In this document: piece after piece, positions 10,498 to 48,114 of the stretch
Layout: every line of letters starts with the position of its first letter
Numbering within the stretch: the stretch's first letter is position 1
Source of the DNA: Methanocaldococcus fervens AG86
GTDB taxonomy: Archaea > AGJL01 > Methanococci > Methanococcales > Methanocaldococcaceae
DNA: 64,000 nucleotides
Direction: 5' to 3'
NCBI RefSeq assembly: GCF_000023985.1
Contig: NC_013156.1
Span: 1,414,363 to 1,478,362, forward strand
Notes under the pieces: generated by a model
Database searches by the model: none
The model's input: the letters and a program-made list of their open reading frames with translations, nothing else
Told to the model about the DNA's origin: nothing
Position numbers and translations under genes: made by a program

Positions 10498-11670
10498 TTA
10501 TCGCCTCATCATCTCTATAGCTACTTTATAAACTTCTACAGTTTCTTTAGCTATGTTATCCCAACTATACTTTTCGTAAGCATCCTTTTTGGCGTTATTA
10601 ACAATATACTCCCTAAACTCCCAGTCAGATAAAACCCTATCAACCCCCCAAGCAATTGACTCAGGATTTTTTGGATAGACCCAAATGCCATTATACTCAT
10701 GCTGTATAATCTCTCTCAACCCTCCAACCGAGCTTACAACTACAGGTGTTCCAGCGGCCATAGCCTCTAAAGCCACTATACCAAACGGCTCATAGATTGA
10801 AGGAATTACAGCCAGATCAGCTGATTTGTATAATTTTTTTAGCGTATCACCATTAGTAAACCCTAAAAAAACTACTTTATGCCGTACCCCCAATTGATAG
10901 CATAAATCTTCCAAATAACCCCTCATGTCCCCAGACCCGGCTATAACCAACTTTACATTATGCCTTTCAAGGATTTTTGGCATTGCCCTTATTAAATACT
11001 CTACTCCTTTTTGATACGTTAATCTTCCAACAAATAAAATCATCTTTTCATCATCATGAATGCCCAAACTTCTTCTAAAATTTATTCTCTCTTCCCAGCT
11101 CATATTAATATCAAACTCCCAGGGATTTATACCGTTATAAACAACTTTAACCTTATCTTCTGGCGTATTGAATGTGGAGCAAACCTCCTCTTTCAAAGAA
11201 TAACTTACAGTTATTACCTGGCAGGATTCATAGGTTGAGAGATACTCTATCGTATGTATCGCCTTTGAATCATCTGAATGCAGCCCTCCACACCTTCCAA
11301 TCTCCGTGCTATGTATTGATTGGACATAAGGCATTTTACATGCATGCTTTAAATTTGCCCCTACAAAGTGTGTCATCCAATCATGGCAGTGAATTACATC
11401 ATATTTATCAACCCCTAAAATCCCCAACTTTTTTTCCATCTCTTCAGCCATGAATGTAGCCCAGGTTAAAAAATGCGGATGAGTTATTGGTTTTACTCTA
11501 TAGACGTTAACTCCATTTATGTTTTCATAATCCGGCATGTTATAACTAACAGTTATGACATCTACTTCATGTCCATTCCTAACTAAACCCTCTGCCAAAC
11601 CTTTGCAATGAATTGCCAAACCTCCAACGATTCTTGGAGGATACTCCCAGGTTATTATCGCTACCTTCAT
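10498..11670 (-). CDS. glycosyltransferase family 4 protein, glycogen-synthase-like
   Basis: A 390-residue GT-B fold glycosyltransferase. The N-terminal glycine loop (EYPPRIVGGLAIHCKGLAEGL), the nucleotide-site motif FVGRLTYQKGVEYLI and the EPFGIVALEAMAAGTPVV acid pair are all visible. Its location beside a second glycosyltransferase, amylases and glucose-6-phosphate enzymes suggests work on glycogen; a glycolipid or glycan role cannot be excluded. A TTG at 11688 is in frame; the ATG at 11670 fits the family N-terminus MKVAIITWEYPP. It is divergent from the GT5-like gene, 80 bases away. Confidence 0.8.
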   Translation of the reverse strand: MKVAIITWEYPPRIVGGLAIHCKGLAEGLVRNGHEVDVITVSYNMPDYENINGVNVYRVKPITHPHFLTWATFMAEEMEKKLGILGVDKYDVIHCHDWMTHFVGANLKHACKMPYVQSIHSTEIGRCGGLHSDDSKAIHTIEYLSTYESCQVITVSYSLKEEVCSTFNTPEDKVKVVYNGINPWEFDINMSWEERINFRRSLGIHDDEKMILFVGRLTYQKGVEYLIRAMPKILERHNVKLVIAGSGDMRGYLEDLCYQLGVRHKVVFLGFTNGDTLKKLYKSADLAVIPSIYEPFGIVALEAMAAGTPVVVSSVGGLREIIQHEYNGIWVYPKNPESIAWGVDRVLSDWEFREYIVNNAKKDAYEKYSWDNIAKETVEVYKVAIEMMRR

Positions 11671-11750
11671 AATATCATCATATAGCAAGATTTAAATAAG
11701 CTCGTTAATAGAAATTATTATGTTGATAATATAAAAAGGTTGTGATATCC

Positions 11751-13316
11751 ATGAAAATAGCAATTCTTGCTCCAACGATAACCCCTATTGTCTCCTATGG
11801 TGGATTAGGAGATGTGATGAGGGATTTACCAAAATTTTTAAAAAATGGTAATGATGTTTTAGTCTTAACAATAAATCATTACAATAGATATTTTGATATC
11901 CCTCATGAAGTTGTTAAAAAAATAACTGTTGTTTATAAAGGTTCTAAGATTAAATTCGATGTTTTAAAGACGAGGCATCCAACAACCGGTGTTGAGTTGA
12001 TTGTATTTAGCAATGAAGAAATTAACAACTTAGATGTTTGGGATCCTATAAAGTATGAAATCTTTGCTGATTTGGTTGTTGAGTGTTTAAATGATGTGGG
12101 TGATATTGATGTCGCCTCTGGGCATGATTGGATGTGTGGTTTAGCTATAGCCAAATGTAGTGATATATTGGATTTGCCAACAACTTTGACTATACATAAT
12201 GAGGCTTTTAAAGGGGAGATGGTTGAGTATAAAGGAGAGGTTATGACTTTCTTAGAGTTGGGAATTAAATATGCCGATGCAGTCAACACCGTAAGTCCTA
12301 CACACGCTGAAGAGATAAAAAACTGCCCATATATAAAGAAATATTTGGATGGTAAGCCATTTGTTGGAATTCTAAATGGTATAGATATAGATGAATACGA
12401 CCCTATAAAAATAATAGATAGAATGATAACCCTTTCAAATAACAAACTCGATCCGAGAAATTACGCTTATATCTCACCGTACTCAGCTGAAGATGCTTAT
12501 GATGTAAAGCCAAAAATAAAATATTCGTGGTTTTATAAGGGAGGGGTTTATGAATACGTTGAAGATTGGAATAAAATAAAAGATAGGGGAATTTCAGCTA
12601 CGGAAGTTGAGGTGCATGGTGGACTGAAGGGGGAGGTTGAAACTCCATTAATTGGATTTGTAGGTAGGGCTACATATCAAAAAGGATTTGATGTAATGTT
12701 CGAAGCAATTCCTGAACTTTTAGAAAAACATGACATAAGATTTGTATTTTTAACAAAGGGGGAGAGGGAAATTGAAGATAAATTAAAAAATCTCGCTGAG
12801 GAATATGATGGAAAGATTTTGGCTTTAATAGGTTATTCTCTCCCACTTTCATCGCTGGTGTTTGCTGGAAGTGATTGGATGGTTATGCCTTCATATTGGG
12901 AGCCGTGTGGTTTGGTTCAAATGGAAGCGATGGCGTACTGCACTCCAGTTATAGCCACAGAGACTGGGGGTTTAAAAGACACTATAATACCTCTCCACTA
13001 CAACCCTTACGAATTCCCAAACTTTAATAAAGCAACAGGTGTATTATTTAAAGTACCTGATAAAGCAGGATTTATGTGGGGTGTTGAACATGCGTTAAAT
13101 TGGACATTTTATAAAGTTAGTGAGGTGTGTATGTTTTTACAGTATGAAGCATACAAATGCCCTACTCGACCATATGACGAAAACGCCCCTCTTTCCATGA
13201 TGATGAGAAATTGTTATTACCATGTTCTTAGAAACTTAAGCTGGCAGAACTCTCCATCTATAAGGAGATACAAGGGTTTGTTTGGTGGTGCAGTTTACAA
13301 TCATTATTTAAAATAG
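11751..13316 (+). CDS. glgA: glycogen synthase (GT5 type)
   Basis: Predicted to extend alpha-1,4-glucan from a nucleotide-activated glucose. SYGGLGDVMRDLPKFLK matches the glycine-rich donor loop of bacterial and archaeal glycogen synthases. FVGRATYQKGFDVMFE and SYWEPCGLVQMEAMAYCTPVIA hold the phosphate and catalytic residues. It has 521 residues. Of two in-frame starts (GTG 11742, ATG 11751) the ATG has GTGAT at good spacing. pgi and the ADP-dependent sugar kinase follow on the same strand, forming a glycogen and glycolysis operon. Confidence 0.85.
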   Translation: MKIAILAPTITPIVSYGGLGDVMRDLPKFLKNGNDVLVLTINHYNRYFDIPHEVVKKITVVYKGSKIKFDVLKTRHPTTGVELIVFSNEEINNLDVWDPIKYEIFADLVVECLNDVGDIDVASGHDWMCGLAIAKCSDILDLPTTLTIHNEAFKGEMVEYKGEVMTFLELGIKYADAVNTVSPTHAEEIKNCPYIKKYLDGKPFVGILNGIDIDEYDPIKIIDRMITLSNNKLDPRNYAYISPYSAEDAYDVKPKIKYSWFYKGGVYEYVEDWNKIKDRGISATEVEVHGGLKGEVETPLIGFVGRATYQKGFDVMFEAIPELLEKHDIRFVFLTKGEREIEDKLKNLAEEYDGKILALIGYSLPLSSLVFAGSDWMVMPSYWEPCGLVQMEAMAYCTPVIATETGGLKDTIIPLHYNPYEFPNFNKATGVLFKVPDKAGFMWGVEHALNWTFYKVSEVCMFLQYEAYKCPTRPYDENAPLSMMMRNCYYHVLRNLSWQNSPSIRRYKGLFGGAVYNHYLK

Positions 13317-13330
13317 GATTGGGGGGAAAT

Positions 13331-15920
<2,590 letters not shown>

Positions 15921-43706: not shown

Positions 43707-43998
43707 CTACACTAATGCAAAGGCGTTAGTTGAGGAAATCATCAATAAGCTAAAAGAATCTGGTGTTAAAGTTAAATCTCCTTTATCCAAAATTCAAGAT
43801 TTCCATTGTGAGGCAGATTTTTCTATTGAGATTGAAAATAGAGTAGCTTATGTAGATGCAACATTTACTTTTGATAAACCACCAAATTCTAACATGGTTG
43901 AGAAAATTGAAGCAGTTATGACAACGTATAACTCTTATTTGGAAAGGATTGACTTTGAGGCAGATTATACTAAGTTAGAGTTTAGGAGCGTGAGATAA
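43699..43998 (+). CDS. viral head-tail or tail-terminator-like protein
   Basis: About 99 residues from a TTG at 43699, which follows GGCGGTG and overlaps the previous stop; an ATG at 43675 would add 8 residues but has a poor ribosome site. The mixed alpha/beta reading ([20 protein letters not shown] ... [20 protein letters not shown] ... [17 protein letters not shown]) fits tail terminators by size and order. Function is from position only. The next gene starts in its stop (TAATG). Confidence 0.45.
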
Positions 43999-44702
43999 TG
44001 GTGCTTCCAATTAGTATTCCAGACCAAAGTAATATTTTAGGTTCTGGAAAGTTGGCAATTTTTGGAGCTAAATCTCAAATTGATACATTTACAGGAGATG
44101 GGGCGACAAAGGAATTTTCATTAACAAAGGATAACGCTGTATTGGGTTCTGAGGTTGTAAAAGTTGATGGAGTTCCAAAGGTTGAGGGGACTGATTACAC
44201 TGCTGTGCATGAGAATGGTATTCTAAAAAGTATTAAGTTTAACACAGCTCCAGCAAATGGTGCAGTTATTGAAGTTGAGTATTTGTATTTGGATTTACCA
44301 CTCGGAGGAGCTTCTGAATTGAGTTTGAAAGAGGATAAAGACAAGGAGGAGGTAAGTGTTGATTGTTCTTATTCAACTATTCAAATTGAAAAAGGGGCTA
44401 AGATATCATTTAGTTTTAAGGACTTGCTTACAGTTGGAGATATCAACTTAACATCCTATTTTACTGGAGAGATTGAAGAAGGGAGCAGTTATGTTAGGTA
44501 TAAAAACGGAGCTTCAAAGAGTGGGAACATTGCCGTCTTAGCTTATTCAAAAGAGGCCACATTAGCTCATGGAAAGGAAGCTCCTAAAAGAATCATCTTA
44601 ATCTATGGAGCTATGCCAAATAGCTTGGATATTGATATTTCTGGAGCTACGAAGAGTTTTGACTTGACAGCTCAGGCATACAGAGTTATTGACTTAAAAT
44701 AA
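43998..44702 (+). CDS. major tail tube protein
   Basis: A 234-residue beta-rich protein. SQIDTFTGDGATKEFSLTKDN and VEVEYLYLDLPLGGASELSLKEDK are followed by a tube-like barrel (VSVDCSYSTIQIEKGAKISFSFKD, KRIILIYGAMPNSLDIDISGATKSFDLTAQAYRVID). Its place directly before the tail chaperone and tape measure is the standard tail-tube site. It overlaps the preceding stop by one base. Confidence 0.65.
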   Translation: MVLPISIPDQSNILGSGKLAIFGAKSQIDTFTGDGATKEFSLTKDNAVLGSEVVKVDGVPKVEGTDYTAVHENGILKSIKFNTAPANGAVIEVEYLYLDLPLGGASELSLKEDKDKEEVSVDCSYSTIQIEKGAKISFSFKDLLTVGDINLTSYFTGEIEEGSSYVRYKNGASKSGNIAVLAYSKEATLAHGKEAPKRIILIYGAMPNSLDIDISGATKSFDLTAQAYRVIDLK

Positions 44703-44711
44703 GGTGATTAG

Positions 44712-45077
44712 ATGAACAATCACTTAGAATTCTTAAAACAGTTAGATGAGAAGTTTAAGGAATCAGAACAAAAGAATCTCGAAGCATTAGAAAAAATTAG
44801 GTCTAATTTACCTCAATTAGAAATTGAGATATTTGGAGAAAAATTAACGGCAATAATTCCACCACTCTCAGTAGAAAAGGAAATGATTGAAGATGCGAAT
44901 AAATTAGACCCTTTGAACTTTGCATTAAAATACATCCCAATTTTATATGGCATTCCAAAAGAGAAAGTTGAGGAATTACCTTCGATTGTTATTGCAGAAC
45001 TTATCAAGAATTACTTTGAGGCTTATAAGAAGTTAAACCAGGATAAATCCTTTCGCAATAGAGTGGGCGTTAAGTGA
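44712..45077 (+). CDS. tail assembly chaperone, short product
   Basis: A 121-residue acidic helical protein (LEFLKQLDEKFKESEQKNLEALEKIRSNLPQLEIEIFGEKL..., SVEKEMIEDANKLDPLNFALKYIPILYGIP) in the lambda gpG position between tail tube and tape measure. Such genes usually yield a second, longer product by frameshifting, and the +1 frame here stays open over the end of the gene. GGTGATTAG precedes the ATG. Confidence 0.7.
   Translation: MNNHLEFLKQLDEKFKESEQKNLEALEKIRSNLPQLEIEIFGEKLTAIIPPLSVEKEMIEDANKLDPLNFALKYIPILYGIPKEKVEELPSIVIAELIKNYFEAYKKLNQDKSFRNRVGVK
45051..45057 (+). promoter_or_regulatory. putative +1 programmed frameshift site (TTT CGC A)
   Basis: Codon 114 of the chaperone is TTT, followed by CGC, a codon rare in this AT-rich genome. 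A Phe tRNA on TTT could slip by one base to TTC while CGC waits, giving GCA ATA GAG next. The overlap of the two frames is only 45037-45077, so the shift must occur in this short stretch. Confidence 0.6.
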
Positions 45078-45225
45078 TGATGCAACAGAACTTTATTTAG
45101 TCTGCAAATTCCTAAGAATCCCCCCAAGTGAAGCGATAAAGCTAAATAGGATGGATTACAACATTATATTAGGATTTGCAATTAGAGAATTGAGGGATAA
45201 GCTAAAATATGGGGGGATTCTATGA
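45055..45225 (+). CDS. frameshift extension of tail assembly chaperone (gpGT-like)
   Basis: The +1 frame reads AIEWALSDDATELYLVC and onward for 56 codons to TGA at 45223. The only in-frame ATG (45148) would leave 25 codons, and no ribosome site exists at the frame's beginning. It therefore looks like the T domain of a G-GT chaperone pair, adding 56 residues for a product of ~170. It ends where the next gene begins (overlap CTATGA). Confidence 0.6.
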   Translation, partial: AIEWALSDDATELYLVCKFLRIPPSEAIKLNRMDYNIILGFAIRELRDKLKYGGIL

Positions 45226-45593
45226 GATGGCTCACACCATTCGGTATGTTGTTCATAAGTGGGACGTATTATGGATTAATATTTTTTGGCTTAATTATGG
45301 AAGTTATTCATAATGCATTGGTTAGTTTAGTTTTAGCATTTTTTGTAGTATTTGTATGGGATTTAATTTTGTCCATAATATATGGTTTAAGATTTGTTAA
45401 AGAAGGGGAATATCTATATTTAGAATGGAATGGGCAGTTTCCAGACCCTTATGGATTGTTTGCAAGCACGTGCCTTTCAGCAGTGATTTGGACATATACA
45501 GATTCATTATTATTGGGTTTAATTGTCCCAGTTATTGTTGTATTCTTAGGAAAGCAGTTAATGCGTGGATTGTATGAAAAAGTTAAAAGTTGA
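45222..45593 (+). CDS. viral membrane protein between tail chaperone and tape measure
   Basis: A 123-residue protein with about four membrane helices: MLFISGTYYGLIFFGLIMEV, ALVSLVLAFFVVFVWDLI, LFASTCLSAVIWTY and SLLLGLIVPVIVVFLG. I know no standard tail gene like it. It could help genome passage or host membrane steps. The ATG follows GGGGGG and overlaps the frameshift product's stop; its end overlaps the tape-measure start. Confidence 0.65.
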   Translation: MRWLTPFGMLFISGTYYGLIFFGLIMEVIHNALVSLVLAFFVVFVWDLILSIIYGLRFVKEGEYLYLEWNGQFPDPYGLFASTCLSAVIWTYTDSLLLGLIVPVIVVFLGKQLMRGLYEKVKS

Positions 45594-48114
45594 AGGAACT
45601 TTGGAATTGAAATTGGATGATAAAGATGTAAGGAAAAATCTAAAATCATTAGAAAAAATAAAATCAAAATTAGAGATAGAAGGTAATATCAACGCAATAA
45701 TTAAGCAATTGGATGAGTTAAAAAATGTCAAATCAGAAGTTGAATTTAAGAGTAATATAAACATGATTATTAGGGAGTTGGAAGAGATAGAGGCAGAAGC
45801 ATCTAAAATGAACATAAACTTTGATTATGATTTATCAAAACTAAAAAGTGAATTAGAACAATTGAAAAACACAAAAATCGATATTAAAACAAATACAGAC
45901 TATATATTAAAACAAATCAATAAAATAAAAAGTGAATTATCTGAAAAACAAACAATTAGGGCAAAGGTTGAAGTGGATAGAACAGAATGGGATAAACTAA
46001 AGAAGGAATGGTCTGAAAAATATCACATAGATGCCATTGCAGATGTGGCAAGTGTAGGAACTGCATACATGGGGATTTCCGACGCTGAAAAATACAACGA
46101 ACTAATAACAATTTTAAGAGAAAGGGGTTTGACTAAAGACCAAGCAGAGAGGTTAATACAACTTGGCTTATATAACGGCTATTCTTTGGATGAAATTAAA
46201 GATGGATTAGGATATGCAAATGAGGCAGTTTTGAAGTTAGCAGCATCAAATGATAAATATGCGGCTCAAATATTGGCAGCAATGGCAATGGCTGAAAGGG
46301 GAGGTAGTGAGTCAGGAGCAGATGACATTAGAAGGATGATAACCGCACTCGCTGCTTTAGGGAAGTCAAATGAAGAAATAATGAAAATGGTGAATGCTGA
46401 AGTTTTAGAAATGAAGCAAGGGCATACAGAAGTCGCAGAAGCAATTAGAGAATTCAGCATAACAATGGGAGATACCTTAGACCCAGAAACGTTTGCATCA
46501 ATATTGATTCAGGCACAAGCAGCAGGGGCTCAAGATGTAGGGCAGTTAGCAGATGCCATAAATGCATTAGCGTTAAATGCAAGACAGATGGGATTTGATG
46601 TAAAAACTGCACTAAAAGAGATTCAAAAAACAAAAGATGATAAAACATTGGCAGAGTTGGCAAAAAAATATGGCTTAACTTATGAACAAATAGTTAAAAT
46701 TCATGATTATTTACAGAGGGTAGATTTAGATAAGGGCTTGCCAGACAATACCAACGAACTTGATAGGTTAATAAGCATAAATAAAGACCAAAGGGGAATT
46801 TTAGAAACGATTAAGCAGGATATTGAAGGGTGGTTAGCAGGTCATGGGTTTTTACAATATGGAGCAGAGCTTGGAGTAACTCTTGGAGGTCTTGGAAAAA
46901 TACTTGAAATAGCAATTGGTGCAGCAATTGGTTCTGCGTTAAAAGATGCTTTTGGTAAAATTAAATCCATATTTGGTAAAATTAGTTTGGATAATTTAAA
47001 ACTTCCAGAACTCTCAAAAATCAAATTACCTGTTGATTTAGAAATCCCAAAAATTCCAAAACTCCACATGCCTAAGATTAAACTGCCAGTAGATTTAAAA
47101 CTACCTAAAATTCCAGAAATCAACATACCAAAAATTAACCTGCCAAACATCTCTGGATTATCTAATGCATTTAGGGGTTTAGGTGAAGCTGTTAGGTTTG
47201 CTGGAAGAGCTTTTGGAGTTTTATCAGTAGTTATTGAGCCATTAAAACAACTATTAAAAGGAGATATACAAGGAGCTATAGAGCATTTAAAAATAGGGCT
47301 TATTGAATTAGCCGCATGGCCAGTTGCTTTGGGAGAGATGTTAGCAGCTGTTACATTAGCTGTTGGTGATTTCTTAGGATTGTTTGACTTAGATGGAGAC
47401 AGTCCATTAGCAGCTGCAAGAGCTGGGATTCTAACACTCTTAGCAGCATTTGAAAGCATTTATTCATTTATCACTGGTGATTGGAGTGTTGTAACTAACA
47501 CACTGCAAGAAGCGTTTGAAACACTTGGAATGAAAGAGGATGAAGCCAGACAAGCAGCTGAAAACTTAGCCCAGCAATGGCAACAATTACCTCAGCAAAT
47601 ATTAGACGCATTTAATGGCTTTGTTGATAATATTAAACAAACATTTAATAGGTGGTGGTATGAATTGAATATATGGTGGTCTCAAAAAATAGAAGAAGCT
47701 AAGAACTGGGGTAGTGATTTGATTCAAAATATAATTGATGGAATAAAAAGGAAGTTTTCAGAGTTGAGGAATGCTGTAAGTCAAGCTGCGAGTATTATAT
47801 CGAACTACCTACACCATACCACACCTGAAACAGGCCCATTAAAAGACGATGATAAATGGGGAATCCACTTTATGGAAAACATTATTGGTGGAATTAGAAA
47901 AGAAATTCCTAACTTAAAGAAAACTATTGATTATACTGCTCAACTGATGAGCTCCGCAAATCCTAAAAATTGGAAAATTCAACAAGTAGGAATGACACAC
48001 AGCACATCTTACTCTTATGGAGATATACACATAAATGTAGTTGGAAATAGCTTTAATGAGCATCAATTAGCTCAAAAAATTGCTTTAATTCTAAAAAGAC
48101 AACAATTCAGATAA
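45574..48114 (+). CDS. tail tape measure protein
   Basis: An 846-residue protein, the longest in the block. The first ~145 residues are coiled coil (IKSKLEIEGNINAIIKQLDELKN). Residues ~155-410 are a helical domain. A proline-rich stretch at ~475-525 repeats PKI-P-L/I-PKIKLPVDL units. Hydrophobic helices follow (residues ~530-640), then a C-terminal domain with a closing IHINVVGNSFNEHQLAQKI. At about 0.15 nm per residue the tail would be ~125 nm. ATG 45574 follows GTGGA. Confidence 0.8.
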   Translation: MKKLKVEGTLELKLDDKDVRKNLKSLEKIKSKLEIEGNINAIIKQLDELKNVKSEVEFKSNINMIIRELEEIEAEASKMNINFDYDLSKLKSELEQLKNTKIDIKTNTDYILKQINKIKSELSEKQTIRAKVEVDRTEWDKLKKEWSEKYHIDAIADVASVGTAYMGISDAEKYNELITILRERGLTKDQAERLIQLGLYNGYSLDEIKDGLGYANEAVLKLAASNDKYAAQILAAMAMAERGGSESGADDIRRMITALAALGKSNEEIMKMVNAEVLEMKQGHTEVAEAIREFSITMGDTLDPETFASILIQAQAAGAQDVGQLADAINALALNARQMGFDVKTALKEIQKTKDDKTLAELAKKYGLTYEQIVKIHDYLQRVDLDKGLPDNTNELDRLISINKDQRGILETIKQDIEGWLAGHGFLQYGAELGVTLGGLGKILEIAIGAAIGSALKDAFGKIKSIFGKISLDNLKLPELSKIKLPVDLEIPKIPKLHMPKIKLPVDLKLPKIPEINIPKINLPNISGLSNAFRGLGEAVRFAGRAFGVLSVVIEPLKQLLKGDIQGAIEHLKIGLIELAAWPVALGEMLAAVTLAVGDFLGLFDLDGDSPLAAARAGILTLLAAFESIYSFITGDWSVVTNTLQEAFETLGMKEDEARQAAENLAQQWQQLPQQILDAFNGFVDNIKQTFNRWWYELNIWWSQKIEEAKNWGSDLIQNIIDGIKRKFSELRNAVSQAASIISNYLHHTTPETGPLKDDDKWGIHFMENIIGGIRKEIPNLKKTIDYTAQLMSSANPKNWKIQQVGMTHSTSYSYGDIHINVVGNSFNEHQLAQKIALILKRQQFR

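Follow-up and report, generated by a model that had tools for sequence, protein, structure and literature searches.

The window considered here is a stretch of 64,000 nucleotides that carries a provirus 100% identical at the protein level to MFTV1 (Methanocaldococcus fervens tailed virus 1, MT711370, Fervensviridae), so that what is seen here is MFTV1 residing as a provirus in M. fervens, its host, or in a near-identical strain. The host genome comprises two contigs (1,507,251 bp), with a chromosome of 1,485,061 bp. The tail region of the provirus contains the following features.

43998–44702, + strand: candidate gene for the major tail (tube) protein, immediately upstream of ORF A, named from its position, with weak library matches.
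44712–45077, + strand: ORF A, the zero-frame product (G-like) of the putative tail assembly chaperone, 121 aa, with the stop codon TGA at 45075–45077.
45037–45225, + strand: ORF B, the +1 frame (T-like extension), with post-shift residues from 45055–45222 and the stop codon TGA at 45223–45225.
44712–45225, + strand: predicted trans-frame fusion (G-T type), 170 aa, 19.8 kDa, with the joint (slash) at ...NQDKSF/AIEWALSDD...
45045–45054, + strand: predicted shift site AAA_TCC_TTT_C (divided into zero-frame codons), the same in each of the five elements compared below.
45051–45056, + strand: predicted slip codon TTT, followed by the A-site codon CGC, the rarest codon in the window.
45222–45593, + strand: gene for a small hydrophobic protein, the ATG of which overlaps the ORF B stop codon as ATGA (45222–45225).
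45583–48114, + strand: gene for the tail tape measure protein (PHROG 58, E 1.3e-15), in an ORF open from 45565.

The candidate tail protein gene, homologues of which are 44–46% identical in three Methanococcaceae genomes (G018–G020), is thus followed by the overlapping pair and then by the tape measure gene, with one small hydrophobic gene between them. The product of this small gene is probably a membrane protein. The gene is also kept in a second Methanocaldococcus element (G003), and its location between chaperone and tape measure is an unusual insertion in such a gene order. ORF A is preceded by the Shine-Dalgarno-like sequence AAGGTGATTAG. In the public record MT711370, only ORF A is listed (11406–11771, “hypothetical protein”) and the next feature begins at 11916, leaving the +1 ORF unannotated.

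Assignment of a function to this pair draws mainly on its position and on the frameshift, with moderate support from structure. Tail assembly chaperones are a fast-evolving group that is commonly missed by sequence libraries, and neither ORF A nor the fusion has a convincing match among PHROG, Pfam, or NCBIfam families. When the two ORFs were folded separately by AlphaFold, ORF A was modeled as a long helix, a beta hairpin, and further helices (pLDDT 75) and ORF B as a helical protein (pLDDT 80). Foldseek comparison of the ORF A model with viral models returned several matches annotated as tail assembly chaperones, the best of these being A0A8S5QLA8 (probability 0.98, E 0.042); the best E value of any match was 0.0086, with none at or below 0.001. 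No structure in the PDB matched the ORF A model, and two weak hits from a profile search of solved structures, 8fje (E 0.0016) and 1i8t (E 0.0049), were taken as chance. A chaperone role is what we infer from this combination.

The arrangement of the two frames is as the preliminary description gave it, with the first ending at 45077, the second running from 45037 to 45222, and TTT CGC located at 45051–45056. As the ORF scan shows the +1 frame to open only after a TAA that precedes 45037, and as ORF A ends at 45077, a shift between the two is possible only in this interval. Of 5,000 dinucleotide shuffles, 35 (~0.7%) had a +1 frame open over 56 codons, so that the open frame by itself carries modest weight; it is conservation that decides the matter. 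CGC is the rarest of the 61 sense codons in the window (5 of 17,984 codons, 0.28 per 1000). In-frame TTT-CGC occurs once among the ORFs of the window, at the shift site, as does TCC-TTT. A tRNA search recovered tRNA-Phe with the anticodon GAA only, a single species for both UUU and UUC, and tRNA-Arg(GCG) once. Evidence for a stimulatory RNA structure was sought both upstream and downstream of the site, where folding was no better than in shuffled sequences (z 0.13–0.68). An internal Shine-Dalgarno-like sequence, AGGAT, lies upstream in MFTV1 and was rejected as a candidate stimulator, as it is not retained in G018–G020.

Relatives were found by searching with a virtual fusion of ORF A and ORF B, and the alignment called for in the preliminary description could thereby be made. 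Five independent elements have the two-frame arrangement: MFTV1, G003, and the Methanococcaceae elements G018, G019, and G020. Identity to the MFTV1 fusion is 91% in G003 and 32–34% in G018–G020, and in each element ORF A is followed by only a short tail after KSF, with ORF B in the +1 frame. The alignment of the five fusions is free of gaps across the joint, KSF/xIxWA, in which K-S-F is invariant and I, W, and A follow at fixed spacing. In the codon alignment, the longest run of nucleotides identical in all five, AAATCCTTTC, lies at the predicted site and measures 10 nucleotides, as compared with 6 for the next longest. The serine codon at the site is TCC throughout, though TCC accounts for only 7–11% of serine codons in these genomes, and synonymous sites elsewhere have diverged almost to saturation between the two clades (dS 1.67 for ORF A). 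Both the overlap and the predicted slip site (UCC_UUU_C) are therefore conserved in all five elements. The zero-frame codon after TTT varies, being CGC in MFTV1 and G003 and CTG in G018–G020; CTG, at 1.6–1.9 per 1000, is also among the rarest codons of the Methanococcaceae genomes. The invariant core is (UCC_)UUU_C, the wider family conforming to UUU_C only and not to CGN. Within clades, omega is 0.10–0.18 for ORF A and 0.025–0.126 for ORF B (four comparisons), the latter range indicating purifying selection on the second frame; these low values argue that both frames make protein.

A related observation comes from the metagenomic virus contig IMGVR_UViG_3300026488_000077 (L011), in which the chaperone is identical to that of MFTV1 and the upstream capsid genes are clearly different. 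This pattern points to an exchange of modules near the tail genes.

The setting of the homologous genes in Methanococcaceae is of a different kind. In G018–G020, MFTV1-like genes for terminase, protease, capsid, and tail protein lie in one host-flanked block of ~14 kb, and a portal gene was found in the G018 and G019 sets. The frameshifted chaperone and a short (~240 aa) ORF are found ~240 kb away from the block (G018) or on another contig, with a ribD-like gene and a histone gene nearby. In G018, the two locations on contig C2 are at about 116,100–130,300 and 371,100–372,400 (L014, L041), and the same layout is seen in G019 and G020. A conserved set that is split in this way and has no integrase close by is reminiscent of a gene transfer agent, and is possibly the VTA of Methanococcus voltae.

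Taken together, the region 44712–45225 can be read as encoding a two-product tail assembly chaperone of MFTV1, the two products being joined by a programmed +1 frameshift at TTT_CGC, a reading to which we assign a probability of roughly 0.9. The preliminary description had proposed this shift, with re-pairing of the Phe tRNA to TTC, and it is the best explanation for the conservation among the five elements, the selection on both frames, and the gap-free joint. According to this model, most ribosomes would translate ORF A as far as its stop codon, which ends at 45077, and release the 121-aa G-like chaperone. In a minority, tRNA-Phe(GAA) held on UUU in the P site would wait for decoding of the zero-frame CGC and slip from UUU to UUC, yielding the 170-aa G-T type fusion. 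Such a slip would improve the pairing of the P-site tRNA and would replace CGC in the A site by GCA, which is common. Slippage on the preceding UCC_U would produce the same peptide and is inseparable by sequence from a slip on UUU. In phage lambda, the abundant short product of the gpG/gpGT pair coats the tape measure protein and the scarce long product recruits the major tail protein; by analogy, the two MFTV1 products may divide their roles in the same way.

Comparison with known systems illustrates both how well this site fits a recognized class and where it departs from it. The gpG/gpGT pair of lambda and the corresponding genes of HVTV-1, HCTV-1/2/5, and Hardycor1 resemble those of MFTV1 in gene order, in their two overlapping products, and in an inferred role in tail assembly, but shift by -1 on X_XXY_YYZ heptamers, whereas the MFTV1 shift would be +1 on UUU_C. 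Among archaeal viruses, -1 chaperone shifts are described for HVTV-1 and HCTV-1/2/5 and a very likely +1 shift for HSTV-2 (PMC5009743; PMC8211752), and in the HF1 group a shift was proposed at TTT-CGC within a perfectly conserved 15-bp stretch, with eukaryotic TTT-CGn sites pointed to as parallels (PMC7230728). The preliminary description expected +1 events to be uncommon in archaeal viruses, which understates the precedent. Of the Hafunaviridae, the family of HSTV-2, HF1/HF2, Serpecor1, HRTV-5/25/27, and HJTV-2, seven viruses from four genera were compared here. In each of them the +1 frame is open and either TTT_CGC or TTT_CGT lies close to the ORF A stop; in HSTV-2 the site reads TCC_TTT_CGC. 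Like MFTV1, these are archaeal tailed viruses with a chaperone pair in +1 relation located between tail tube and tape measure; unlike MFTV1, they are contractile-tailed and infect halophiles. As no homology between their chaperones and those of MFTV1 was detected (hhalign probability 0.4%), the shared site is either convergent or too old for a common origin to be seen.

The closest mechanistic parallel is provided by influenza A PA-X, for which the site, UCC_UUU_CGU, and the +1 direction are proven by mass spectrometry and a slip from UUU to UUC is favored; shifting there has a frequency of ~1.3% and was lowered, but not abolished, by changing UCC or by changing CGU to CGG (PMC3498833). The MFTV1 site has the sequence elements of this UUU_CGN class: a P-site UUU followed by C and read by a single tRNA-Phe(GAA), a CGN codon in the A site, and UCC in the E site, as in PA-X. 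The plant amalgavirus +1 sites share the P-site UUU_C and the A-site CGN (PMC5052127). Both eukaryotic cases involve eukaryotic ribosomes and unrelated genes, and the MFTV1 family differs from them further in that its Methanococcaceae members use CTG in the A site. These comparisons bear on the weight that the preliminary description gave to CGC as a rare codon. Its rarity in the window stands, but it does not account for the whole mechanism: the Methanococcaceae homologues have CTG there, and HSTV-2 uses CGC commonly (21.2 per 1000), TTT being the rare codon (4.2 per 1000). Given the HSTV-2 usage, a rare A-site codon is not a shared requirement and is not supported as a general cause, in line with the remark that the effect of CGN codons may arise otherwise than through tRNA supply (PMC5052127).

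Two methanogen viruses considered as further +1 cases, psiM2 and Blf4, both look to be -1. In psiM2 (L126), a chaperone candidate at 13712–13948 has a -1 frame open past its stop codon, the second frame being unannotated; in Blf4 (L127), the candidate at 13336–13620 is likewise followed by an open -1 frame, and GAA AAA AAC at the overlap resembles a classical -1 heptamer.

Among other routes by which ORF B might be expressed, a -2 shift leads into the same frame and would differ from +1 only in the peptide formed (...SFFAIEW...). Some annotation favors this direction, in that Hafunaviridae records (NC_062755, NC_062759, NC_062760) describe the shift at TTT_CGN as a “putative programmed translational -2 frameshift”. 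Nevertheless, UUU_C permits cognate re-pairing to UUC at +1, whereas a -2 movement from UUU would require re-pairing with CCU, which mismatches tRNA-Phe, and the PA-X peptide from UCC_UUU_CGU is +1, with no -2 peptide found (PMC3498833). A -2 shift at the MFTV1 site is accordingly improbable, and the direction we infer is +1. As for the Hafunaviridae records themselves, although annotated as -2, TTT_CGN fits the proven +1 class and the annotation may deserve revision. The computed tryptic peptides spanning the MFTV1 joint are SFAIEWALSDDATELYLVCK for +1 (2273.09 Da monoisotopic) and SFFAIEWALSDDATELYLVCK for -2 (2420.16 Da); at the same point, tryptic digestion of the unshifted ORF A product would give SFR only.

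Expression of ORF B as a separate gene, whether from an internal start or through coupling to termination of ORF A, perhaps with a non-standard start codon, is very unlikely. The first start-like codon of the +1 frame is the ATG at 45151, but it would yield just 24 codons, misses the conserved SFxIxWA region, and is absent from the Methanococcaceae homologues; as the preliminary description had held, this is not a usable start. Conservation of ORF B continues unbroken into the shift site, and in the homologue L006, ORF B lacks ATG, GTG, and TTG altogether, a strong argument against separate initiation. What is conserved across relatives is therefore a second ORF that overlaps the first and has no usable start of its own. 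Transcriptional slippage would also merge the frames, but usually needs much longer homopolymers than the runs of just three T and three A at this site, and as the conserved element is codon-structured, it is scarcely credible here. Finally, although a single base change would join both frames, a sequencing error is ruled out and a gene broken by recent mutation is so unlikely as to be negligible, given that the site is identical in MT711370 and IMG/VR contigs, that the layout recurs in G003 and G018–G020 under purifying selection in both frames, that L006 ORF B is startless, and that a search of 36 genomes of the order, together with viral contigs, genome contigs, and phage records, turned up no relative in which the two frames are fused into one. 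None of the findings that the preliminary description had named as fatal to its proposal, whether a sequencing error, a usable separate start, or relatives without the overlap, was thus encountered.

In its broader context, the MFTV1 shift would be a further, well-supported instance of a mechanism already known and not a novel one. A 2021 review (PMC8211752) counted just one demonstrated programmed frameshift in Archaea, a -1, with +1 shifting there only predicted. What MFTV1 adds is a UCC_UUU_C sequence deeply conserved across two archaeal families, with a core identical to the influenza and halovirus sites. A more general proposal, which we advance tentatively and regard as somewhat short of an even chance, is that UUU_C (typically UCC_UUU_CGN) is a general +1 site of archaeal and eukaryotic ribosomes, driven by UUU-to-UUC re-pairing and an intrinsic effect of CGN in the A site rather than by codon rarity, adopted independently by unrelated tail chaperones in Methanococcales and Halobacteria, and persisting in domesticated gene-transfer-agent-like elements of Methanococcaceae. 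Because the MFTV1 site is small, structure-free, deeply conserved, and carried by a provirus in a cultured host, and because it shares its core with a proven eukaryotic viral site, it would allow one to test cleanly whether the ribosomes of Archaea and of eukaryotes have a common sensitivity to UUU_CGN. For MFTV1 itself, the predicted fusion would restore a 56-residue domain that is missing from the annotation of the public record.
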